A DNA stretch of 32,448 nucleotides from Bacteroidota bacterium (GTDB taxonomy: Bacteria > Bacteroidota > Rhodothermia > Rhodothermales > Bin80), in contig JAPOTS010000017.1 of the NCBI GenBank assembly GCA_026709065.1, positions 1 through 32,448 on the forward strand, in the 5' to 3' direction. Numbering within the stretch: the first letter of the stretch is position 1; each line of letters opens with the position of its first letter. This document shows, in pieces, positions 9,872 to 29,306 of this stretch. The notes beneath the pieces are model-generated. The model made no database searches. It was given only the letters and a program-made list of their open reading frames with translations, and was not told where the DNA came from. Both the position numbers and the translations under genes were made by a program.

Positions 9872-11401
9872 ATGGCAGTGACACCGGATGCACCAAGCTC
9901 ACAAAACTTGCCAAATCACGGCTTAAATGTAAGCGTGAAAAATTTTGGGCCGATCTACAGAGGCAACATTGATATTCGGCCACTTACTGTTTTTGTAGGA
10001 CAGAGTAACACTGGGAAGTCATATTTAGCCACCCTTGTCTATTCTTTGCACCGTTACTTTTCCAACAGCATAAATAATTTCACCTATTTTTTTCCTTGGA
10101 AAATCAAATCCTTAAAAGTCAAAGACGAAATTATATCTCACCCAGACATAATAAAATACCTTGATTCATGGATTTCTGCTCTTAATGAAGAGGATCAAAC
10201 ACCTCCGTTGCCAGAGCGAGTTGAGAAAGTGATTCGTTCAATCATAGAAAATGCCGAGTACCTGGCAGACCCTATTGAAAGGGAAATTATTAGGTGCTAT
10301 GGAATAAATTCCATCGGAGAATTGATCAGACTACCATATGCTAATGAAGCCGAAGCCATTGTAGATATTCCTCAACCGGATAAAAGGGGTAATCTGCAAT
10401 ATCACTTAGGCATCAATCACAACGAGTTCAATGTAACCACTAAATTAGACGGCTTAAGTTTGCCTTTTCCCGACTGGATTGAATCACGGGAATTGATTAT
10501 GATGAGTAAGACTATACTTAATGATCTAAATCCAGAATCCAAATCCGATCTGCACAATGCCAGTTCGCTATTGGGAATGCTCGCTGAAATAACTAGGAAT
10601 ACTATGAATAGCTTGCTTAGTCGGAATGCTTACTATTTACCTGCTGATCGGACTGGTGTCATGCATAGCCATCAGGTAGTCGTTAGTGCAATTATTCAGA
10701 ATGCAACCACAGCTGGGCTACGCCCTGCTCATGGTGTACCCATCTTGTCAGGCGTTCTCTCAGATTTCTTGGAACAACTCATACAAATGGCAAGCAAACC
10801 AAAATCTGAGATCAACCAGAAGTTAGACTCATTGGCATCATCAGTTGAGGAGACAGTTCTAAAAGGAGGGGTGAACCTTTGTGCTTCCAGTGTAAACTAT
10901 CCACATTTTTATTATAAGCCGAATGGATGGAACTTAACATTACCCCTCATGCGATCATCGTCCATGGTATCCGAGCTAGCACCAATCGTTCTATATCTCA
11001 GACATATTCTGACACCGGGCGATATTCTTATTATTGAAGAACCAGAATCACATTTACATCCCGAGATGCAAATTGAAGTCATCCGACTCTTGGCTCGGAT
11101 CGTACGTTCTGGAGTTCAAGTTGTTGTTACGACTCATAGCGAGTGGGTATTGGATGAGATAGCTACCATAGTACAGCGATCACAAAAAAGAGAATCTGAC
11201 AAGATCAATTCAGAAAATGCAAGCGACTGTCTCTTTCCTCATGAGGTTGGAGCATGGTTATTCAAACATCATGGAAAATCTGATGGAGTGGTTGTTGAAG
11301 AACTGGAGATAGATAATTCGGGATTATATCCTTCTGGTTTTGACCGAGTTGCTATTGATCAGCACAACCGATGGGCTGAAGTAGTAAGTGAAACTGAGTG
11401 A
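9872..11401 (+). CDS. AAA/OLD-type ABC ATPase, probable defence protein
   Basis: A 509-residue ATPase of the RecF/SMC-like (ABC/OLD) type. It starts with KNFGPIYRGNIDIRPLTVFVG and has Walker A GQSNTGKS at 43-50, Walker B ILIIEEPES with E389/E390, the LHPEMQ motif after it, and the switch histidine in VVTTHSEW (H422). The central 300 residues are helical and of no known fold to me. There is no TOPRIM domain, so the nuclease activity of true OLD proteins is not in this chain. Its stop TGA directly abuts the ATG of the next gene (11402), which encodes a decayed PD-(D/E)xK-like protein. The two look like a translationally coupled ATPase-nuclease pair, a common design in phage defence. The defence role is inferred. 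Confidence 0.8.
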   Translation: MAVTPDAPSSQNLPNHGLNVSVKNFGPIYRGNIDIRPLTVFVGQSNTGKSYLATLVYSLHRYFSNSINNFTYFFPWKIKSLKVKDEIISHPDIIKYLDSWISALNEEDQTPPLPERVEKVIRSIIENAEYLADPIEREIIRCYGINSIGELIRLPYANEAEAIVDIPQPDKRGNLQYHLGINHNEFNVTTKLDGLSLPFPDWIESRELIMMSKTILNDLNPESKSDLHNASSLLGMLAEITRNTMNSLLSRNAYYLPADRTGVMHSHQVVVSAIIQNATTAGLRPAHGVPILSGVLSDFLEQLIQMASKPKSEINQKLDSLASSVEETVLKGGVNLCASSVNYPHFYYKPNGWNLTLPLMRSSSMVSELAPIVLYLRHILTPGDILIIEEPESHLHPEMQIEVIRLLARIVRSGVQVVVTTHSEWVLDEIATIVQRSQKRESDKINSENASDCLFPHEVGAWLFKHHGKSDGVVVEELEIDNSGLYPSGFDRVAIDQHNRWAEVVSETE

Positions 11402-12161: not shown

Positions 12162-13832
12162 TTAGTGCATGAATAATTCCATGTCAGCGTGCACATTTTT
12201 TACTGGAATTTTCAGAGCTTTATAGATGCTCTTGATCACCTTTATTTGATCATCAGTCACATCACCATCGATTGTAGCGACTTTGAAAGCGATCTCCACC
12301 GATGAGGGGTAACAGATGCTTCTCGGAGTCTTCTTGACCAGATCTCTGTACCATTGAATGGTCGGACAATAATCGCGCATGATGCGAAGATTTGCATGAA
12401 GACGAATCATTTCCTCTTCAACCAATTGCTTAGATTGGATATACTTTTCCAGAATCGTAACTGCATCTGGATGGATAGGATCTCTTGCATGGCCAACGAT
12501 GAATCCAGCCAAAATATACATGATGGATTCTTGATATTCATCGCTCACTTCTGTTAACCATGATCGATTCTCTGGAAGTTTAAATATAGCGTATGGAGCA
12601 TCAAAGCTAGATCCTTCCCATTCATAGATTGGATCAGGTGCCATCCCACAAGACAGAATCTTTAACGCTTCAGAAACCTTCCTGACCTGTGTAAGATATA
12701 CTTGGATATAGTGATCTAAATTGAGGACCTTTAGTAAATCTTGGATAGGAATATCTTCATTTGAAGGCATCGCTTTCTCTACCATGGTCTTGAGCTCTTT
12801 AAGCCCAGGTGGCAAACACATCGGTTTGATACTTTCAGGAAGTCGTTTATATGCGATTAATGGACTGTAGTTATATGCTCTTGTGGCCATATATAGACCA
12901 TAATCATAGATCATTTTTGAAGCTTGGTCAACCAACTCAATAGCGTCTTCATCTAATGACGAGATGGTGGTAAGGTCAGGAATCTTACCCAAATGGCGGA
13001 GTAGATCCACCGAGAAGCCCTGCTCCTTAGCTTCATACTTGGGGTGAAGTTCTGCTGTTACTTTGGGAATTGGAAGTCCATTTGGAAAATGCTGATCAAA
13101 CAAATGACCGAAAGTAACTATAAATTCTAAAAGTGCTCTTTGAACAGGTGCTTTTAGTGTTTTACCTGAGCAAATCAAATAGAGAACAAGGAACCAATGA
13201 TGATTCAATTGTTGTCCAGTCTCAATCTTGTTCTTCATGGCAACCCCAATATCCAGGGATGTGTGTTTGTGAGTTTTAATATCAGGATAGTGTGGTTCAA
13301 TCTCCTCAGCTGGTTTGATAATTGCGTTTGCAGTATCGATAAATTTCGTGAGGAATCTTTCAATGGTTCTAATCGGATATTTACCTCTGTATTGACCTAA
13401 TAGACGTTTCGCCTCAGAAAGAAGGATGAGGCATTCCTGCTCTTCAGGAGAATCAATAAAAAATCGTCGTTCCAATCCTAAGATATAGAGCAAGATGTAA
13501 CTTTGACCAAATCCATCAGCAGATCGCTCAGTAGCAAGCCACTCAAGATAAATAGCACGTTCAGAGGGTTCCATTGAACCATAGGACCATGGCTTTTCGC
13601 TCAGCTCAATTTTGGGATTAATTTCCTTGTTGAATTCTTTGACTGGCAGGTTTGGATCAATGGCTGAGTCATAATACTTTCCGAATGCACCGTCAACTCT
13701 GGTGCCGATATATACCATCCCTTGAATTTCACGGCCAGCTATGGTTAGAGTCTGATCTGCTGGAATCCAGGTATCATCAGGGTGTAGGGTAATGTTTTCT
13801 TTGAGAACAAGATCGCTTTGATCAATCATCAT
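12162..13832 (-). CDS. TerB-N/TerB-C domain protein
   Basis: A 556-residue soluble protein. Residues about 30-260 match the TerB-N domain: REIQGMVYIGTRVD, SAIDPNLPV, then SERAIYLEWLATERS and YILLYILGLERRFF. The last ~60 residues (KVATIDGDVTDDQIKVIKSI) fit the acidic TerB-C-type helical domain. The middle is helical with no recognised motif. TerB-type domains come from tellurite-resistance/stress systems and occur in predicted DNA-processing or defence operons, often beside an ATPase and a helicase. Here neither lies on the same strand next to it; the closest are the divergent ATPase pair and the Schlafen-like gene. No signal peptide or membrane segment. Domain call fairly sure, role unknown. 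Confidence 0.7.
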   Translation of the reverse strand: MMIDQSDLVLKENITLHPDDTWIPADQTLTIAGREIQGMVYIGTRVDGAFGKYYDSAIDPNLPVKEFNKEINPKIELSEKPWSYGSMEPSERAIYLEWLATERSADGFGQSYILLYILGLERRFFIDSPEEQECLILLSEAKRLLGQYRGKYPIRTIERFLTKFIDTANAIIKPAEEIEPHYPDIKTHKHTSLDIGVAMKNKIETGQQLNHHWFLVLYLICSGKTLKAPVQRALLEFIVTFGHLFDQHFPNGLPIPKVTAELHPKYEAKEQGFSVDLLRHLGKIPDLTTISSLDEDAIELVDQASKMIYDYGLYMATRAYNYSPLIAYKRLPESIKPMCLPPGLKELKTMVEKAMPSNEDIPIQDLLKVLNLDHYIQVYLTQVRKVSEALKILSCGMAPDPIYEWEGSSFDAPYAIFKLPENRSWLTEVSDEYQESIMYILAGFIVGHARDPIHPDAVTILEKYIQSKQLVEEEMIRLHANLRIMRDYCPTIQWYRDLVKKTPRSICYPSSVEIAFKVATIDGDVTDDQIKVIKSIYKALKIPVKNVHADMELFMH

Positions 13833-14572: not shown

Positions 14573-15889
14573 TCATGTGTCGCTTCTAAACGATGAAATG
14601 GGATCAAAATAGTTACGGATTAATTTTGGATTATCAACAATTGGAGCGTGATTTATATCTGAATTAGGTTCAAGAAAATCTTGAATCATTTTGGATTTTT
14701 TTGCCTCCCGACTTGACTTTGAATCAGATTGAGCGTTTGAGGAATCTTCATTGGATTGGAAAAACACATGACCCATCTCTGGTGACGGAATTCGAAAAAA
14801 TGTAATTGTCACAAAATTTTTAGAAATGGTATATTTGGGTTCAGCTACTTTATGTTTGCGACATTGATCTTGAATAAGGCGAATACCATATCCTACACGT
14901 TCAACCATGCCCATACGATGAAGAATCCTAAATAATAATGGATTCCTTGGGATGCTACTTATCCCAAGCTCCGATTCAGTCATACCAGACGGTAAGCCTC
15001 CAGGGCTTATGATTTCTAACCTGTCGGAGTATAAATGGACTTGAATATTTCCAGCAGAACGATAGTCACGGTGAGCGAAAGCATTGATTACAGCTTCCCG
15101 TATCGCGGATGGAGGAAATTCGGGGCGCTCTTCACGATGTAGTTTTTCTATGATATATTCAATATTGATTTTAGACAGAATCCATTCTACTGTGTCATTA
15201 ATCATTGAAACGATATCGCTATGAAAATCATGTCGACCGAGGATATGCGCTTTAGTGGTTCCCATAAACAAAACACACGAAACGTCTGCACTGATATTGA
15301 AATCCCGTATATTCTTGGCCAGTAGCCAGGCGCATGCGTTAGTCACCTTAAAATTTTTGGTGATCAGATCCAAGTTTCTTAGAGCAATTTTGGGAGACAT
15401 CTCACTGGGGATCTTAGACTGCTCTTGAAACCATAACCAATGATCTTTATCCAAATCATCCTCCAAAGAAAAACTTTGACAAATACTATTATCAAAATGT
15501 AGATATCCTACTTCATAAAAGAAATTCCCGATTTCCTCCCTTGACAGTTGCTGAGAATTAGCTCCTTGACGGAGATAGAATTTCCCTTGAAATGAGTAAG
15601 GCTGTCTTTCTTGTGGAGGAACCTCAATACAAATGACTGAATCAAGACTCTTGATCTCTATGTGAATGGGAGGATCTGCTGAGTATGCAATCGTCTGAAT
15701 CTTTGATCTTAAACTATTTGTATCAGAGATCCCAACAATTTTGCCAGAATCACAAACTCCTAATAGAATTTCCCCGCCAGAAGAGTTAGCAAATGCACAG
15801 ATTTCGCGCCCGATATTGGATGTAAACGATCGTTGGAACTCAATACCGCTCCCCTCTCCTTCAGCTATAAGTTGATTCAGTTGATCAAT
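14573..15889 (-). CDS. Schlafen AlbA_2 plus GHKL ATPase protein (RecG-related), start codon unclear
   Basis: The frame is open from 15913 to the stop at 14573 and encodes one continuous protein of about 440 residues. Residues ~1-130 form an AlbA_2 (Schlafen-type) domain: QLNQLIAEGEGSGIEFQRSF, EICAFANSSGGEILLGV, then GKFYLRQGANSQQLSREEI. The second half is the HATPase_c_4 module: PPSAIREAVINAFAHRDYRS, the LEIISPGGLPSG box and HRMGMVERVGYGIRLIQ. The length fits the family. No in-frame ATG, GTG or TTG precedes the TTG at 15466, which would delete the whole AlbA_2 domain. ATT at 15887-15889 is offered here as the start. An AAG two codons earlier (15893-15895) would be ATG with one base change, so the start may have been lost by mutation. 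Such proteins are predicted nucleic-acid-binding regulators or defence factors. Confidence 0.7.
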   Translation of the reverse strand: MDQLNQLIAEGEGSGIEFQRSFTSNIGREICAFANSSGGEILLGVCDSGKIVGISDTNSLRSKIQTIAYSADPPIHIEIKSLDSVICIEVPPQERQPYSFQGKFYLRQGANSQQLSREEIGNFFYEVGYLHFDNSICQSFSLEDDLDKDHWLWFQEQSKIPSEMSPKIALRNLDLITKNFKVTNACAWLLAKNIRDFNISADVSCVLFMGTTKAHILGRHDFHSDIVSMINDTVEWILSKINIEYIIEKLHREERPEFPPSAIREAVINAFAHRDYRSAGNIQVHLYSDRLEIISPGGLPSGMTESELGISSIPRNPLLFRILHRMGMVERVGYGIRLIQDQCRKHKVAEPKYTISKNFVTITFFRIPSPEMGHVFFQSNEDSSNAQSDSKSSREAKKSKMIQDFLEPNSDINHAPIVDNPKLIRNYFDPISSFRSDT

Positions 15890-22194: not shown

Positions 22195-22987
22195 GACAGA
22201 ATATTGTTTTGTGAAAGTAAGTATTTAGATTTAGTCTAAATACAAATAAACTGTACATTCTAATGAGTGTTCCCGCACATTGCAGATTGGTTGATCTGTC
22301 AAAGAATTAGATTCAACACAAACAGACATACTCCATAAAGTCCAAATAAGAAGTGGTTTTTGCTGATACACCAGCGACGATCGTCACTTAAATCCACATG
22401 GGCAGTGAAACAGTTTTGATTAGTGTAGTAAAGCCTTTTAATCAGGCACGATATCAAGTTTCAGTTGATATAAGTTAAGCTAACTCTAAGATGAATAGGG
22501 ACAGTGGATACTAATTTAGTGGGACACTTTTATGAAAAAATAGTGACCTGATTTAAATTAAAAGTTAAGGTTCTATCACGATATTTGTGGGTGCAGGTCC
22601 AAACCTCCGCAGAAGAAGAGAATAGCAACGCGGAAGTTTTCAATCTTCTGTATCCTCTCCCAATAGTTTTGATCTCTTTGATTTTTCCGTCATTTTCTCT
22701 GCCCATTGGACAGTGGATAAATAATGCATTGTAGATTCAATACATAAACATCTACTGGATGTAGCCTCTTATCTATTTCCACATTGTAATAGCCAGCGAG
22801 ATCCTAATTTAGTGAGTGGAGCAACAAGGATTCTATAAATGTATCTTGTATGAAAAAATGAATTTGGTGGAACCAGAATCATTCGTTTCCACACAAAACA
22901 TGGTAGAACCAATCCTTAGAATGAAATCAGGACGATGACCTTTCAGGTCTTACAGTAAGGGGCTATCCAAGATTAGCAGACCGAGAG
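22195..22987. other. 793-bp region with short dispersed repeats
   Basis: No gene is recognised. Three short words each occur twice: GGACAGTGGATA at 22499-22510 and 22708-22719, CTAATTTAGTG at 22511-22521 and 22804-22814, and TATGAAAAAAT at 22531-22541 and 22849-22859. In the first block they follow one another closely; in the second they are spread out. This suggests one or two decayed copies of an insertion-element end or another small repeat. Confidence 0.4.
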
Positions 22988-23428
22988 TTAAGAACCACCG
23001 GTGAGCAATAATGTTATCAGCCACCCACCCATGGTCAAGATTATACCGATACCAGTAGTTATACCAATCTTGAGCCATTTAATCACTGAATCAAACCGTT
23101 TGTCTACTAAATCAAACCGTTTGTCTACTAAATCTAAACGTTTATCTATTGAATCTAAACGCTGATCTACTGAATCAAAACGATGATCCACTGAATCAAA
23201 ACGATGATCCACTGAATCAAAACGATGATCTACTGAATCAAATCTGGCATCAACAATACTCTTGAACGAATCTGTTTCAGACTTAACTGAAGTGGTTGAT
23301 AGATCCGTCTGAATTTCCACGAGTTCGTAAGTTTCTGCTTCAGTCAAGGATCCGTTTTGATCCAACTTCCTCAACAAGACAAAAGCACGGGTGCGCAGGT
23401 TAGATGTAGATTTTGATGTGGGTTCCAT
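22988..23428 (-). CDS. Heptad-repeat coiled-coil protein with C-terminal membrane anchor
   Basis: A 146-residue protein. Residues 59-115 are a regular heptad array of the form RFDSVDH/RLDSIDK/RFDLVDK, eight to nine copies with hydrophobic F or L and V or I at a/d-like positions, so a parallel coiled coil is expected. Residues 119-142 form one hydrophobic transmembrane helix (WLKIGITTGIGIILTMGGWL) with a very short tail, so the coil most likely faces the cytoplasm. The N-terminal 50 residues are charged and helical. The layout recalls Bdr-like and DUF1640-type proteins, but I do not assign a function. It stands alone, well separated from both neighbours. Confidence 0.65.
   Translation of the reverse strand: MEPTSKSTSNLRTRAFVLLRKLDQNGSLTEAETYELVEIQTDLSTTSVKSETDSFKSIVDARFDSVDHRFDSVDHRFDSVDHRFDSVDQRLDSIDKRLDLVDKRFDLVDKRFDSVIKWLKIGITTGIGIILTMGGWLITLLLTGGS
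23087..23254 (-). repeat. 21-bp tandem repeat, eight copies, in frame
   Basis: Eight consecutive 21-base units begin with TGAATC or TAAATC on the plus strand. The units at 23171-23191 and 23192-23212 are identical and the next differs by one base, while units toward the 23087 side have diverged. Each unit encodes one heptad of the coiled-coil protein on the minus strand. Because the unit is a multiple of three and near-identical copies adjoin, copy number can change without breaking the frame. Confidence 0.85.
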
Positions 23429-23813: not shown

Positions 23814-26603
23814 CTAACGAGATTGAGTGTCTGACAAAATGTCTCTGATTTCGCTAGGTGCAAGTGCAATATCGCAGGACCAGTCTCCAAATCGTCTATC
23901 CTCATTGACAGCTCGAACCCACTCTTGAAGAAATCTGTGCTTGGCCTTTGTCTCGTCATTTTCTTTCCCTTTGATTTCAAGAACCAGCATGGTCCCTGAT
24001 TGAAGTTTAATGATAAAATCAGGGCGATAATTACGGATGATTCCTCGGTAATGGTATTTGATTTCAAAACCGAGATGATCATTTTTAACCCATGCCAGTA
24101 TCTCCGAATTTTTATCAAGTTCTTTGGCTGCTAAGGCTTCCCACGTGCTATCGTAAACACAATAATTGATATGACTCCGTTTAGTGAGCCCACAGGGCTT
24201 GGAGGTATCCCATGAAATCATATCTCCAGTAGAACGAATGGGTTGATCTGAATCAAGCAATATTTCTCGATTTTCAGAATTCTCAGAACGAATCGCACCT
24301 ATTATATACCTGACAACCTTGGTCATTTCAAGGCTGATGATAATTTTACGCTTCCGATCGTTGGCTTGAATGAGCAATTGAGGTAAGATATGAATTCCAT
24401 TAGGTCGGGCAATAAACTGCTCAACTAGATGTACTAACTGAGATAACAGATCAACTCTCCCTCCTTTCCAATTGGGATTGAGCTGATCACACACTTCTTT
24501 GGCTGTCTGAAATATAATTGTCTGCAACCGTCTGTCTCCCATTAATTTCTCCAAGTCAATTTCTTTAATTTTGGTAAGATCGGGCTTGCCTTCAACGGTC
24601 GGCGCTAGTTCGGCCAGTTTAGGAATATTTGTTGTGTCCAAGGTGAGTGGACTTAGTTTTTTCCAATCCACAACTAATTTCGTACGGAGTGCGTGTTCAA
24701 TACGAATCACATTTGGCCATTTAATCTCAAATGTCTGTTGTCTTTCAGTAATCGGTTCAACCGTTGTCTTTGGTTTAGGGGGTGGCGGTGGAATGTCCAA
24801 TCCACCTTCATGAGGTAGAAAGGTGAATGGAACTCCAAAAATATTGACATATTCTGGATCAAAAAATCCTGTTTCTGGATTCACATCATAAGTCGTACGA
24901 CGTAATCCACGCCCGACCACCTGCTCACAAAGAAGTTGGCTCGTGAACGCTCTCAGTCCCATGATATGCGTGACTGTCTTCGCATCCCATCCCTCGGATA
25001 ACATTCCAACAGAGATTACATTCTGAATCATCTCCCCTGGCTTGCCCACCTGCCCTACCGTATCTACTTGCTGCCGTAAAAACTCAGCCTGTTGCTTTTT
25101 AGTCCGCTCTTCTTTGGGTTTACTATCATCATCTATATCTGCAATGGGCACTTCCGAACTGTCGGCTTGACTCAGGACTTTTGAGTCAATATGAAGAATA
25201 CGTTCAGGATCACATAGTTCTTTAATGTCTATTTTTTTATGATCAAACATGTATTTGATGCGTGCGGCTGTTTCGGTGCGATTAGCCACTGTAATCATCA
25301 CTGGCCGAGTGTGATTACCAGATTGATTTTCCCAATTTTTTAAAGTTTCTCTCCAATCATAACCAAGTAAATTATAACCATGACGGACTAAATCAGGTAA
25401 CTGCTCCTCAGGTAGTGCTTTCCTGTTTAAGTCGCTCTGAACTTCTGGATCATTATAGATGTGATAGAGCCTTGATTTGTAGGTTTGAGCATCTGGTAGA
25501 GCATCATCATTTATCACGACACGAGGTGTCTTCACCAGCCCTGATTCAATCGCATCATTAAGCCCAAAGTCAGTTACAATCCAACCAAACAGTGCTTCCT
25601 CACGGGTTTGATTTCCAGATGGTGTAAAAGGTGTTGCTGAAAAATCATAACATTTCAGTATACCACGGGCTTTGTGGATTCTGTCTAATCCACCGATCCA
25701 TTTTGTGGCTTTTTCAAGCTCATTTTTTTGAACACCCCTCTTGGAATTAGGGGTTACACGCCATGCATGATGTGCTTCATCATTGATAATCAAGAGGTTT
25801 TGTGTATTAGAGATCTTCCCAAGAACTTCCCTTGCATAGGCCTCATCACTCTGTACTCCCCGTTTATCAACTCCACGTTTTTTAGCAATCTGTTCTGCCG
25901 TTTTCCAATTTAAAGCGTGCCAATTACGGATTACAACGCGTCCCTGACGTAATTTCTCAAGTAATGCCGAAGGGACTATCCTAAAACTTTCATAATAATT
26001 ATCTGGGTCGTTGGGATCAACAACTGCCAAACGATTCTTAACTGTAAGCCCAGGAGCTACAACAAGGACATTCTTAGAAAATCTTATATCCTGCTTATTT
26101 GCGACTTTGTTGAGGATATGCCATGCAATCACCATGGCCATGACCACAGTTTTGCCAGACCCGGTAGCCATCTTTGCACACAGCCTTTGAAACTCTCCAC
26201 CGTCAGACGTAATATCCAAACCAACTTTTTGATTTGCAGGAGCTTCTGTCAGCCAGATCAGTGTTTCAGCCGCTTCCAGTTGACAAAAGAAGAATCTCCT
26301 TGTTTCAAATTCTTCGGGATCATGCCAATAATTTAGCAATCGTCTAGTAACACTTGTGACTCCAGGGTATCCATCATTACGCCAGTTCTTGACACGTAGC
26401 CGAATTAGATTCACAAGTGGAATTTCTTGAAAAATTCCTGGATCATCAAAAGATTTTGAATCCTTGGAAGCTACTAAATATCCGGCGGGCCGACGCTTAT
26501 TAATTATGTCAAACTTTCTAATATGCCTTTCGTAATGCCAGTGCCTTTTAGGCTCATCATAAGGGGAGTTGATAATTAATTGGTCAATGGTTTTGCTAGG
26601 CAT
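23814..26603 (-). CDS. res: Type III-like restriction subunit, BPTD_3080 family (helicase plus nuclease)
   Basis: A 929-residue DEAD/DEAH helicase-nuclease, the cutting half of a restriction-modification system. The N-terminus INSPYDEPKRHWHYE and RRPAGYLVASKDS are family-specific. Walker A is MATGSGKT at 145-152, the Walker B DEAH box is at 275-278 (INDEAHHAW), motif III-like YDFSATPF follows, and motif VI is QVVGRGLRR. The C-terminal ~90 residues carry a PD-(D/E)xK nuclease core, YRPDFIIK then MLVLEIKGK. No frameshift or missing motif is seen. It begins 139 bases after the end of the modification gene on the same strand. If the methyltransferase is off while this protein is made, the host could be exposed to self-cleavage unless cleavage needs Mod, as in classical type III enzymes. 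Confidence 0.88.
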   Translation of the reverse strand: MPSKTIDQLIINSPYDEPKRHWHYERHIRKFDIINKRRPAGYLVASKDSKSFDDPGIFQEIPLVNLIRLRVKNWRNDGYPGVTSVTRRLLNYWHDPEEFETRRFFFCQLEAAETLIWLTEAPANQKVGLDITSDGGEFQRLCAKMATGSGKTVVMAMVIAWHILNKVANKQDIRFSKNVLVVAPGLTVKNRLAVVDPNDPDNYYESFRIVPSALLEKLRQGRVVIRNWHALNWKTAEQIAKKRGVDKRGVQSDEAYAREVLGKISNTQNLLIINDEAHHAWRVTPNSKRGVQKNELEKATKWIGGLDRIHKARGILKCYDFSATPFTPSGNQTREEALFGWIVTDFGLNDAIESGLVKTPRVVINDDALPDAQTYKSRLYHIYNDPEVQSDLNRKALPEEQLPDLVRHGYNLLGYDWRETLKNWENQSGNHTRPVMITVANRTETAARIKYMFDHKKIDIKELCDPERILHIDSKVLSQADSSEVPIADIDDDSKPKEERTKKQQAEFLRQQVDTVGQVGKPGEMIQNVISVGMLSEGWDAKTVTHIMGLRAFTSQLLCEQVVGRGLRRTTYDVNPETGFFDPEYVNIFGVPFTFLPHEGGLDIPPPPPKPKTTVEPITERQQTFEIKWPNVIRIEHALRTKLVVDWKKLSPLTLDTTNIPKLAELAPTVEGKPDLTKIKEIDLEKLMGDRRLQTIIFQTAKEVCDQLNPNWKGGRVDLLSQLVHLVEQFIARPNGIHILPQLLIQANDRKRKIIISLEMTKVVRYIIGAIRSENSENREILLDSDQPIRSTGDMISWDTSKPCGLTKRSHINYCVYDSTWEALAAKELDKNSEILAWVKNDHLGFEIKYHYRGIIRNYRPDFIIKLQSGTMLVLEIKGKENDETKAKHRFLQEWVRAVNEDRRFGDWSCDIALAPSEIRDILSDTQSR

Positions 26604-26742: not shown

Positions 26743-27330
26743 TCACTCTAATTCTAAGATCTTTAGACTTTCAATGCCGCGATCATCAATGATTTTGACC
26801 GCTGCTCTTCGATGCTCACCTGCCTTAAATGGTAGTGATTTTGTACCGACATAAGCATTGATGAGACTTGGATCAATGTCTGCTTTGAGGTTTTTTTCTA
26901 ACCGCTTCAGATCTTTCTCTCCCCTATCTGTAAGAAAGAATACCTGTCTGGGAAATAGGCTACGGCCATCGTAATCGGTATCAAGCATCCACATTGCAAT
27001 CTTCTCGGAATTTCCAGAGTCAATTTCTTCAGTCTCCATATTGAAGTAATCAAATCCATGAACGGAAATCCGATACTCCTTATTATTTGAGTTAGGATCC
27101 TTTTCAACCCGTACGTCTGGTTGGCCGATCAACCAGAAACTTTCGTTACTGGCGCGTTTCTTTCTCAGATCATCGGTTAAAAGATCGGAGTTCATCTGTG
27201 CTTTAAGCAGCGTCATGCCTGGCCAGTTTGTTTCATCAATGTCTTTTGAGGCTTCTGGATCAAATTGAAAAGCCGCAAAAATTATGATGGATGGCTTAGG
27301 GACAATGCTATTGGCATCCTCAATTGCCAT
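26743..27330 (-). pseudogene. mod: C-terminal part of the Mod methyltransferase, now out of frame
   Basis: From the ATG at 27330 it encodes 195 residues: IVPKPSIIIFAAFQFDPEAS, NWPGMTLLKAQMNSDLLTDD, SFWLIGQPDVRV, KIAMWMLDTDYDGRSLFPRQ and RGIESLKILELE. This is the C-terminal domain of the BPTD_3080-associated methyltransferase. The frame is open further upstream: 27331-27546 reads WRDELLKTGVRGKSGQRISF to FGPDHAPLEQRQVA without a stop, and remains open through the poly-C tract. The ATG is therefore probably an internal methionine and this is not an independent gene. It is separated from the N-terminal part by a one-base frame difference at 27536-27548. It may be expressed as part of a full-length protein when the upstream frame shifts. 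Confidence 0.8.
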
Positions 27331-27476
27331 AGCGACCTGCCGTTGCTCTAGGGGAGCATGATCGGGCCCGAACGAAACGACGACGCGGCTGGGCGTAGAT
27401 GAAGCCTCTTTACTTTCTGAACTGTCGGGTAGGGTTTCTCCTTCGGCGTGCAGGTAACGCGTTGCAGGCAGGGGTT

Positions 27477-29306
27477 CTAACCTTGCGAAAGAAATACGTT
27501 GCCCTGACTTCCCACGTACACCTGTTTTGAGTAATTCGTCACGCCAATCCTGTTGACGTATTGTTTGCCCAGAACGCTGTGGATGAAAAATCGAGGGGGG
27601 GGGGGGGATTTTGAGTCGACCTCTTGAAGTGGTTTTACGGTTGGTGCTGGAACCGCCTCAACGGTAAATGGCCCTGCAACACGGGTTTTACTTTTATCTA
27701 TGAGCGGTTGGTCATACAAGACTGTTTCTCTGGGTTCCTCGTCATAGCCTAATATTTTTGGGGAAACGGTTTTTACGCTTTTATATTCAAATCCAGACCC
27801 GACACCCTCATTAGGATGTGCTAATTCGTAGTAATCGTAAAATGCAGTTAGGAGGCGTTGCCGAGCCACCGCAATAGCCACGCGTGAAGTGTCACACGTA
27901 ATCCACCGTCTGCCCCATTGTTCTGCAACAAATGCAGTGGTTCCACTGCCGCATGTAAGATCAATCACGATATCACCTGGGTCACTCGTCATTAAGATAC
28001 AACGTTGAATTGGTTGGGGTGCAGTTTGAACAACATAGCGTTTTCCTATAGCTGATCTTTGGTGAGCCCAGACATTATTTATCCTCCTGCCAGGTACTTC
28101 ATTTTCGTAACGTTTCCATCGTAACCAAGCATTGTCACCTTTGACTGCATCAAGCCGACCAAGAGCTGCAAGTCTATCCAAACCGTCCTTAGAAATAGCC
28201 CAATGTGTGTTTTTAGGGCAAAGAAATTTTCGTCCATTCCACTCATATGGCTCCGATCTACCAGTCGAGGAAGCACCTTGAGAATTAAGTTTTTGTAATT
28301 CATATATTCTAGATCCTTGAGGCAAATGTTGATCTGGAGCAAAACGTTCTTCTTGCGTGAGTTTTCTGCGAGTCCCGTTTGGAAGCTCAACCATTACAGT
28401 CCATCCGAGTAACTGAATTGTACCCTTGCGATCCATTGACTCATATAACTGTCTATATTTAACCTTTTGAATATCTTTAGCATACCAAATAAGATAATCT
28501 GCGACCTCAGGAAGAGTATTTGCAGAACTACCGCTCGTGGTAGTATATGTAATGGTAGCTACTCGATTCTCAGCGCCAAAAATCTCATCCATGATTATTC
28601 CAACGCGGTGAACATTTTCATCCCCAATCTGCATAAAACAACTTCCACTTTCATGCAACAAATCATGAGCTAACAACAACCGATCTCGGAGGTAGGTCAA
28701 ATACGAATGGATCCCCAACTCCCATGTGTCTCGGAATGCCTGGATCTGTTCTGGCTCAGCCGTAAGATTTTGATCCGCGTCTCCACCCGTTGGACTTTGT
28801 TCGCTTACAAATGGCTGGAAATTTGAACGATACCCTACTCCATACGGAGGATCAATATAGATGGTTTGTACTTTCCCACCAAGTCCTTCCTTTTCCAACA
28901 AACTATTCATAACTAATAAACTATCCCCAGCAATCAATCGATTCACCCAATTCTGACGATGTTTATAGAACTCTATCGCCTGACGAAGTGGTGGATTTTC
29001 TTCAGGTGTAGAAAATAAAGATAACTGCTCAGAGGTATCATCAGCACGTTTGCGAACAGCATCAATGACGGTATGTGGATCCATTCGCTCATGGACATGA
29101 AGCGATACAGTGGGTAAGTCAAATGATGTGCGCTCTTTCTTACCAGCCCACTCTAATTGCGGGTCTATATGCGGATCATGATGATATATCTTCTTGTCAT
29201 CCTGCCCGTCCGTTTCGGGAGTGACTAAACCCACAGGGGGATTATTTACGCGCTCTTTTCCTTCATGAGTGTAAGTTTCTACCGTTCGCTTCTTGGTACG
29301 CCCCAT
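27477..29306 (-). CDS. mod: Type III-like Mod DNA methyltransferase, N-terminal catalytic part (truncated)
   Basis: The first 609 residues of a beta-class N6-adenine/N4-cytosine methyltransferase. The conserved start RVNNPPVGLVTPETDG is followed by LEWAGKKERTSFDLPTVSLH. The catalytic DPPY is at 152-155 (YIDPPYGVGYRSNF) and the AdoMet-binding motif VIDLTCGSGTTAFVAEQWG lies near 455-470, giving the DPPY-first order of the beta class, with the target recognition region between. After residue ~560 comes a C13 tract coding SPPPP, then RFFIHSVLGKQYVNRIGVTN. From there the frame is wrong, adding YSKQVYVGSQGNVFLSQG and a stop. The continuation is in the neighbouring frame down to 26743; the full protein would be 854 residues. 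Both catalytic motifs are kept, but the missing C-terminus may be needed for the Res complex. Confidence 0.88.
   Translation of the reverse strand: MGRTKKRTVETYTHEGKERVNNPPVGLVTPETDGQDDKKIYHHDPHIDPQLEWAGKKERTSFDLPTVSLHVHERMDPHTVIDAVRKRADDTSEQLSLFSTPEENPPLRQAIEFYKHRQNWVNRLIAGDSLLVMNSLLEKEGLGGKVQTIYIDPPYGVGYRSNFQPFVSEQSPTGGDADQNLTAEPEQIQAFRDTWELGIHSYLTYLRDRLLLAHDLLHESGSCFMQIGDENVHRVGIIMDEIFGAENRVATITYTTTSGSSANTLPEVADYLIWYAKDIQKVKYRQLYESMDRKGTIQLLGWTVMVELPNGTRRKLTQEERFAPDQHLPQGSRIYELQKLNSQGASSTGRSEPYEWNGRKFLCPKNTHWAISKDGLDRLAALGRLDAVKGDNAWLRWKRYENEVPGRRINNVWAHQRSAIGKRYVVQTAPQPIQRCILMTSDPGDIVIDLTCGSGTTAFVAEQWGRRWITCDTSRVAIAVARQRLLTAFYDYYELAHPNEGVGSGFEYKSVKTVSPKILGYDEEPRETVLYDQPLIDKSKTRVAGPFTVEAVPAPTVKPLQEVDSKSPPPPRFFIHSVLGKQYVNRIGVTNYSKQVYVGSQGNVFLSQG
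27536..27548 (-). other. Frame-break point, probable loss of one 13-bp repeat copy
   Basis: On the minus strand ATTGGCGTGACGA encodes IGVTN in the upstream frame and, one base on, WRDE in the downstream frame. The expected family sequence reads IGVTNWRDELL. Two tandem copies of this 13-mer would encode exactly that, so a 13-base deletion between direct repeats explains the break. Confidence 0.6.
27595..27607 (-). repeat. C13 homopolymer tract inside the mod gene
   Basis: Thirteen C on the minus strand (G on the plus strand) encode the SPPPP stretch. Tracts of this length slip readily at replication and are the hallmark of phase-variable type III mod genes. At 13 C the frame runs into the conserved RFFIHSVLGKQYVNRIGVTN. 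At 14 or 11 C the frame continues without a stop into the C-terminal part. Confidence 0.85.

Follow-up and report, generated by a model that had tools for sequence, protein, structure and literature searches.

Can a run of thirteen identical bases switch a whole restriction-modification (RM) system? The question is raised by a stretch of 32,448 nucleotides from a Bacteroidota bacterium of the order Rhodothermales (assembly GCA_026709065.1, contig JAPOTS010000017.1, positions 1 to 32,448; hereafter the window), in which the DNA methyltransferase gene (mod) of a Type III RM system contains the homopolymer C13. With a probability of roughly 0.8, this tract is a slipped-strand phase-variation element in mod, within a contingency set that extends across the genome. 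The evidence that carries this reading is the effect of tract length on the mod product, the different lengths of the tract in related species, and the recurrence of such tracts in other genes. Together these bear out an original prediction, made from the letters of the window, that C13 is a likely slippage switch.

A homopolymer that breaks the mod reading frame in the assembly

The tract occupies positions 27595-27607, as G13 on the plus strand and C13 on the coding (minus) strand, with exactly the coordinates and count first assigned to it. No other C/G run in the whole window reaches seven bases. The string C9 has five overlapping matches, all inside C13, compared with a mean of 0.05 and a maximum of one in 100 shuffled sequences.

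On the minus strand, mod starts at 29306 and, as assembled, ends at a TAG stop at 27477-27479 (27477-29306), which gives a protein of 609 amino acids (aa) with the methylase domain PF01555. Its catalytic motifs, DPPY at residues 152-155 and DLTCGSGTT from residue 449, precede the tract, as originally described. The C-terminal part of the gene, 283 codons and a stop (26743-27594, minus strand), is held in an open frame at 26746-27657, which differs from the frame of the mod core at C13. The tract does lie between the catalytic and C-terminal domains, as had been proposed, but at C13 the frame is broken, which that proposal did not recognise. The adjacent partner gene (23814-26603, minus strand) is intact and encodes Res, a restriction endonuclease of 929 aa that scores 1082 bits against NF046055, the equivalog model of the BPTD_3080 family (cut-off 800), and also matches ResIII (PF04851). 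The assignment to a BPTD_3080-class system is thereby upheld.

Pfam finds PF01555 in the first part of mod and nothing in the second. In a PADLOC scan that covered the C-terminal part and one intact homologue (L157), the Type III methyltransferase profile PDLC03632 (983 positions) matched the former at positions 731-981 and the latter at 78-545 (E 1.2e-145). Most homologues read as one long frame (counted from the aligned start, 69/80 stay open over 800 aa or more, with a median of 849), and the ancestral mod was therefore a single long frame.

When tract length was varied in a script, C11, C14, and C17 yielded products of 853-855 aa, and the other lengths from 9 to 18 yielded 587-610 aa. The gene thus contains a long simple repeat whose length decides between a full and a truncated product. 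The assembled consensus is the out-of-frame state, in which the conserved 283-aa C-terminal part is cut off from a 609-aa Mod. Any single in-frame or out-of-frame call is unsafe, because the metagenome consensus of a long homopolymer can be one base off. Separate translation of the entire C-terminal part in the out-of-frame state was also considered and rejected. The first ATG, GTG, or TTG in its frame comes at codon 89 of 283, too far in for the complete domain to be made in this way.

The same site in related genomes

The comparison within the genus comprised ten genomes, one per species (G000, the genome of the window, to G009). A whole or partial mod is present in eight of them, with weak matches only in G003 and G009. 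The tract site is readable in seven, and six of these seven carry a tract of at least eight. The core and the C-terminal part lie in different frames in the window's own genome (C13), in G001 (C13), and in G005 (C10), and share one frame in G007 (C11). In G004, with C16, only the C-terminal part can be read before a contig end. G006 has C8 in a remnant, where the core is followed by unrelated DNA; G002 has no long tract (C5) and a single frame; and in G008 the contig ends before the tract site. G001 also carries a tract-free mod paralogue, which is 59% identical. The original prediction had named tract length in related genomes as a test, and at this site it is not uniform (8, 10, 11, 13, 13, 16, or no long tract), the lengths compared being those in assemblies of different species.

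Could mod instead be a decaying pseudogene, or an intact gene with a miscalled tract length? Long homopolymers are generally error-prone in assemblies, the G006 gene is a remnant that ends at the tract, and all six tract-bearing methyltransferase genes of the window's genome (described below) read out of frame, as decay would also give. Against this, a tract of at least eight, of differing length, occupies the homologous site in six of the seven genomes that can be read there, both halves of mod are open and conserved apart from the frame break, and Res is intact. We therefore consider decay or miscalling unlikely. Assembly error as a general explanation was rejected on the recurrence of the tract site in several assemblies.

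The break in the G006 gene looks as if a rearrangement had ended at C8; from there on (L155, 5705 onward), neither the C-terminal part nor Res was found in the fetched 9.7 kb.

Outside the genus, C/G runs of at least eight lie in or directly after the matched gene in four cases among the 80 homologues. A Bacteroidota homologue (L176) has C8 in the linker, with differing frames. A further homologue (L220) has a C/G run just past the core match, near a contig end. The other two (L161, at 751, and L178, at 1867) are mod paralogues of Rhodobacteraceae bacterium bin131 with C10 near residue 103. Of this pair, which belongs to another phylum and has its tracts in a different position, one paralogue is in frame with its start and the other is not. 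In addition, a C9 run lies about 100 bases upstream of a matched mod gene (L171).

A genome-wide set of C/G tracts

The window's genome contains 20 C/G runs of at least ten, compared with 0.9 expected from the base composition of the window. Runs of eight or nine occur at expectation (19 vs 19.1), and poly-A runs of at least nine number 18 vs 69 expected. These counts bear on the simplest alternative, namely that C13 arose by chance in a proline-rich linker and has not been selected for switching. The linker is indeed C-rich even in a tract-free homologue (L158), but an excess confined to runs of ten or more, the enrichment of tracts in methyltransferase genes, and the variation in length at homologous sites all argue against chance. 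This alternative was rejected on the run counts, and we regard it as highly improbable.

DNA methyltransferase genes hold 6 of the 20 tracts. The expectation is 0.43, from N6_N4_Mtase and N6_Mtase frames that make up about 2.1% of the genome; the probability of six or more is 2.8e-6 with tracts treated as independent, and 2.0e-6 for 19 tracts when the near-copies L018 and L020 are counted once. Besides the mod of the window, the six comprise two mod-like genes (L006, L012), one of Eco57I/TaqI_C type (L007), and two N6_Mtase genes (L015, L022). None of the 18 poly-A runs falls inside the listed methylase matches, and one is 358 bases from a degraded methylase match.

Another four are located close to the start of genes for fibronectin-III proteins (L013, L018, L019, L020). 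Others are found in or before a protein with an immunoglobulin (Ig)-like match below the Pfam cut-off (L017), upstream of Big_12 (L023) and WD40 (L021) proteins, and in or before a putative lipoprotein, judged by eye (L010). The remainder fall in folD (L011) or in no clear gene. A search with the flank pattern described below added G9 tracts in two methyltransferase frames (L247 and L250, by overlap with Pfam matches) and in a fibronectin-III-like protein (L249, by eye).

Across the genus, counts refer to 84 tracts in eight genomes. G002 and G009, with 30 of all 114 tracts, were set aside because several of their tracts belong to G/C stretches as long as 50 bases, in some cases at the end of a contig; such stretches (L142, L136, L145, L147) are probably assembly artefacts. 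Gene-class counts are lower bounds, because 14 of the 84 tracts were not scanned for families one by one (L008, L009, L014, one of L017, L076, L095, L103, L112, L113, L114, L117, L122, L130, L133). RM genes hold at least 27 of the 84: 6/20 in G000, 5/16 in G001, 1/1 in G003, 3/5 in G004, 4/13 in G005, 3/15 in G006, 4/12 in G007, and 1/2 in G008. They include Type I specificity subunits, Type IIG-like genes, Type ISP genes, and a C5 methylase. When the longest frame across each tract is taken as the criterion, 19 of the 27 read out of frame and 8 in frame, although the call is unreliable for tracts near a gene start (L084, L090, L120, L123).

About ten tracts of the relatives lie in or directly before genes for fibronectin-III, Ig-like, cadherin-like, or leucine-rich-repeat proteins (L078, L086, L087, L092, L096, L102, L111, L118, L121, L129). 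Counter-examples are a transposase (L080), a glycosyltransferase (L128), a tract just upstream of a sulfatase (L081), and two housekeeping genes discussed below (L119, L132).

By sequence, the 84 tracts sort into 59 groups. Tract length varies within every one of the nine groups that have more than one member (paralogues counted); examples are a Type ISP group (10, 11, 11, 11, 14) and a fibronectin-III group (10, 11, 12, 15, 16). The exclusion of G002 also removes one more Type ISP tract (L144), which has a length of 11 and lies at the corresponding position. These Type ISP genes (L075, L098, L106, L126, L131, L144) carry their G-tracts of 10-14 at a homologous place in the C-terminal specificity domain, some in frame and others not. 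An HsdS-like gene has C12 in its middle (L093, 3011-3022), with two frames of about 190-198 aa.

A flank signature of A-runs

Read on the G strand, 47 of the 84 tracts have at least four A at positions -7 to -3, compared with 48 of 2213 shorter G-runs (four to seven) from these loci (odds ratio 57, P 6e-48, with related tracts counted separately). On the other flank, at least four T occur at +3 to +7 in 11/84. The A-run is found regardless of which strand is coding, in 15/25 tracts with G and 23/37 with C on the coding strand (spanning frames of at least 200 aa), a further argument against chance homopolymers in linkers. Counted by sequence group, it is present in 25/59, and in 19/50 singletons. 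An A-run with T or C directly before the G-tract can be seen in either coding orientation, for example at L006, L012, L018, L021, L023, and L100.

The pattern AAAAAYG9 occurs 63 times in the ten genus genomes, compared with three times for the reversed control, with none in G003, G008, and G009. The six other genomes of the family hold 6 vs 0, and the 98 others of the order 1 vs 1. Among 395 genomes sampled from the phylum, eight contain the pattern, one of them outside the order, and counts outside the family are 2 vs 13 in the control. The signature is thus almost confined to the genus.

The tract in the window shows a looser form of the signature. AAAAA on the G strand (27586-27590, plus strand) is parted from G13 by four bases, TCGA, and the tract is not among the 47/84. 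The corresponding five T at the start of the C-terminal part are present in 2/2 homologues with a recognised linker tract and in 0/74 others, L176 with its C8 among these. From these sequences, the A-run in mod seems to come together with the tract. It is missing at C/G runs in or near the mod homologues of other groups (L161, L178, L176, L171, L220, L231).

As a tentative extension, with the odds somewhat against it, these elements might form a lineage-specific hypermutable cassette of about five to seven A, a T or C, and G9-16, placed in either orientation in RM and surface-protein genes. The A-run would act in cis to promote the birth or slippage of G-tracts despite the presence of a mutS-family gene, and would give an uncultured, probably sponge-associated genus combinatorial states of methylation and adhesion. 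A sponge origin is reported for one relative in the genus, Rhodothermaceae bin80 (contig MPNB01000136.1), which comes from Aplysina aerophoba (PMC5649159). The earlier description of the lineage as environmental is doubtful for this reason.

What switching would do to the enzyme

Under slipped-strand switching, gains or losses of one base in the C-run would bring the final 283 codons into or out of the frame, and one length in three would restore the long frame. The out-of-frame product would be a 609-aa Mod that keeps the catalytic motifs and lacks the conserved C-terminal part. Productive methylation would most likely be abolished in this form, and restriction would probably be lost as well, because a Type III Res depends on its Mod; the entire RM system would then be switched. 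The loss of methylation is suggested both by the conservation of the C-terminal part in nearly all homologues and by a Type III mod of Helicobacter pylori, HP1369-HP1370 (M.HpyAXVII), for which PMC3936762 reports that frame correction gave an active enzyme and that the split form gave no methylation. The Mod of the window differs from HP1369-HP1370 in that it apparently belongs to another family, is paired with a BPTD_3080 Res, has an extra C-terminal part of 283 aa, and is known here from its sequence.

A different outcome would be a two-state enzyme, in which the short form still methylates DNA, either with a different specificity or uncoupled from Res, and the long form adds the C-terminal domain. 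All catalytic motifs lie upstream of the tract, and precedents exist. The recognition site of the Type IIG enzyme JHP1272 of H. pylori is altered by a second tract (PMC3936762), and full-length and truncated NgoAV HsdS differ in specificity (PMC7394358). As described in these two papers, a homopolymer gives full-length and shortened proteins in both systems, as in the window, and both forms are active with different specificity; the forms of Mod considered here are predictions.

The structure predicted for the C-terminal part also suits such a view, since this part appears to be a separate domain with a nuclease-fold-like first half. The model (52 sequences; predicted local distance difference test score 82, predicted template modelling score 0.77) has two subdomains. 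Residues 13-137 resemble the NucS nuclease domain (Z 9.9, root-mean-square deviation 2.4, 102 residues aligned), and residues 12-141 resemble EndoMS (Z 9.4; deviations for the two range from 2.4 to 2.7). Lower scores link the first half to PaqCI (Z 7.7), MspJI (7.5), and FokI (7.2). The second subdomain, residues 157-283, is similar to Ig-like sandwiches, with Z up to 9.1. Foldseek on its own gave weak evidence (2vld, E 0.13), and an ExK signature, a motif of such nucleases, was not evident by eye in the conserved columns of this part. The C-terminal part may thus be a nuclease-derived domain for DNA binding or assembly. A full-length model of an intact Mod homologue was of low quality (mean predicted local distance difference test score 61, with the first 200 residues poor) and was not used.

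Conservation of the C-terminal part counts against this alternative. This part goes unmatched in only 3/80 homologues, namely one rearranged remnant, one gene that stops early, and one close to a contig end. Mean column identity across 43 homologues (reference L157) is 0.527 in the linker that holds the tract (residues 558-575), the same as in the recognition region (241-400; 0.527), compared with 0.770 just before the linker (motif-I region) and 0.758 after it, in the C-terminal part. The original prediction, in which slippage changes the C-terminus and the enzyme itself is kept, is not established on this point, as the assembled allele is truncated and the part that it loses is conserved to 0.758, compared with 0.770 for motif I. 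A truncated enzyme might stay active or be re-specified; overall we consider this two-state alternative, the main rival of the proposed switch, rather unlikely.

Several observations weigh against phase variation by slippage. A mutS-family gene is present in 10/10 genus genomes, and to our knowledge H. pylori and Campylobacter jejuni are without such mismatch repair. Loss of mismatch repair as the cause was accordingly rejected, in a search that covered the mutS family. Housekeeping genes also carry G/C tracts of 10-11, namely folD (L011, 2021-2030), ribonucleotide reductase (L119, 3016-3026), and an SRP54-type GTPase (L132, 2999-3008), and switching in these genes is implausible. Homopolymer lengths in metagenome assemblies can err by one base, and the support consists of assembled consensus lengths rather than mixed lengths in the reads of one population. 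We infer both slippage in living populations and its consequence for the enzyme, and place the mod locus in a contingency set of a Rhodothermales genus that would be enriched in RM genes and would also include surface proteins.

Relation to known systems

Repeat-driven contingency loci are best known from pathogens. Type III phasevarions such as modA and modD switch a Type III mod through repeat length, as is proposed here. Their repeats lie mostly in the 5' part of the gene, whereas the tract in the window follows the catalytic core. Repeats have been reported in 17.4% of the Type III mod genes in REBASE (PMC7394358).

The closest parallel to the genome-wide set is C. jejuni, with 12-29 polyG/polyC tracts per genome, compared with 20 in the window's genome; its Type IIG gene cj0031 has G9 inside an RM gene, with conserved domains on either side, and the tract is missing or interrupted in some homologues (all from PMC4889913). 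The loci of C. jejuni mostly modify surface glycans, whereas RM genes and fibronectin-III or Ig-like proteins prevail here. Many tracts described here also carry an A-run on the G strand, a feature compared across genomes of this phylum. A parallel to NgoAV is the HsdS-like gene of the genus that carries C12 midway (L093).

Both Type III mods switched by repeats and contingency sets of polyG tracts are already known (PMC3936762, PMC4889913, PMC7394358). The open-access literature searched held no paper joining Rhodothermales with phase variation and none naming BPTD_3080. As far as these searches show, the new elements are the lineage, the wide range of RM types alongside fibronectin-III and Ig-like proteins, a tract placed ahead of a separate C-terminal domain, and the flank signature as compared across this phylum.

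If the reading as a phase-variation set is true, it would point to symbionts that employ random diversification of this kind, either against phages or towards their host. RM, fibronectin-III, and cadherin genes are reported to be enriched in sponge symbionts (PMC8163846). A caution also follows for genome surveys, as switchable genes appear broken in assemblies. The flank signature is a lead on how hypermutable G-tracts arise or persist.

Other features of the window

Three possible defence genes lie elsewhere in the window. They encode an AAA_15 ATPase like PD-T4-4_A (9872-11401; PADLOC E 4.1e-40), a TerB_N protein with weak likeness to SngA (12162-13832), and a HATPase_c_4 protein (14573-15466). 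A dispersed repeat at 22569-22912 is 84-88% identical to stretches in two other contigs of the same genome, C52 (L010) and C91 (L018). It is followed at 22988-23428 by an open reading frame with tandem repeats of about seven residues (HRFDSVD) and then a hydrophobic end.
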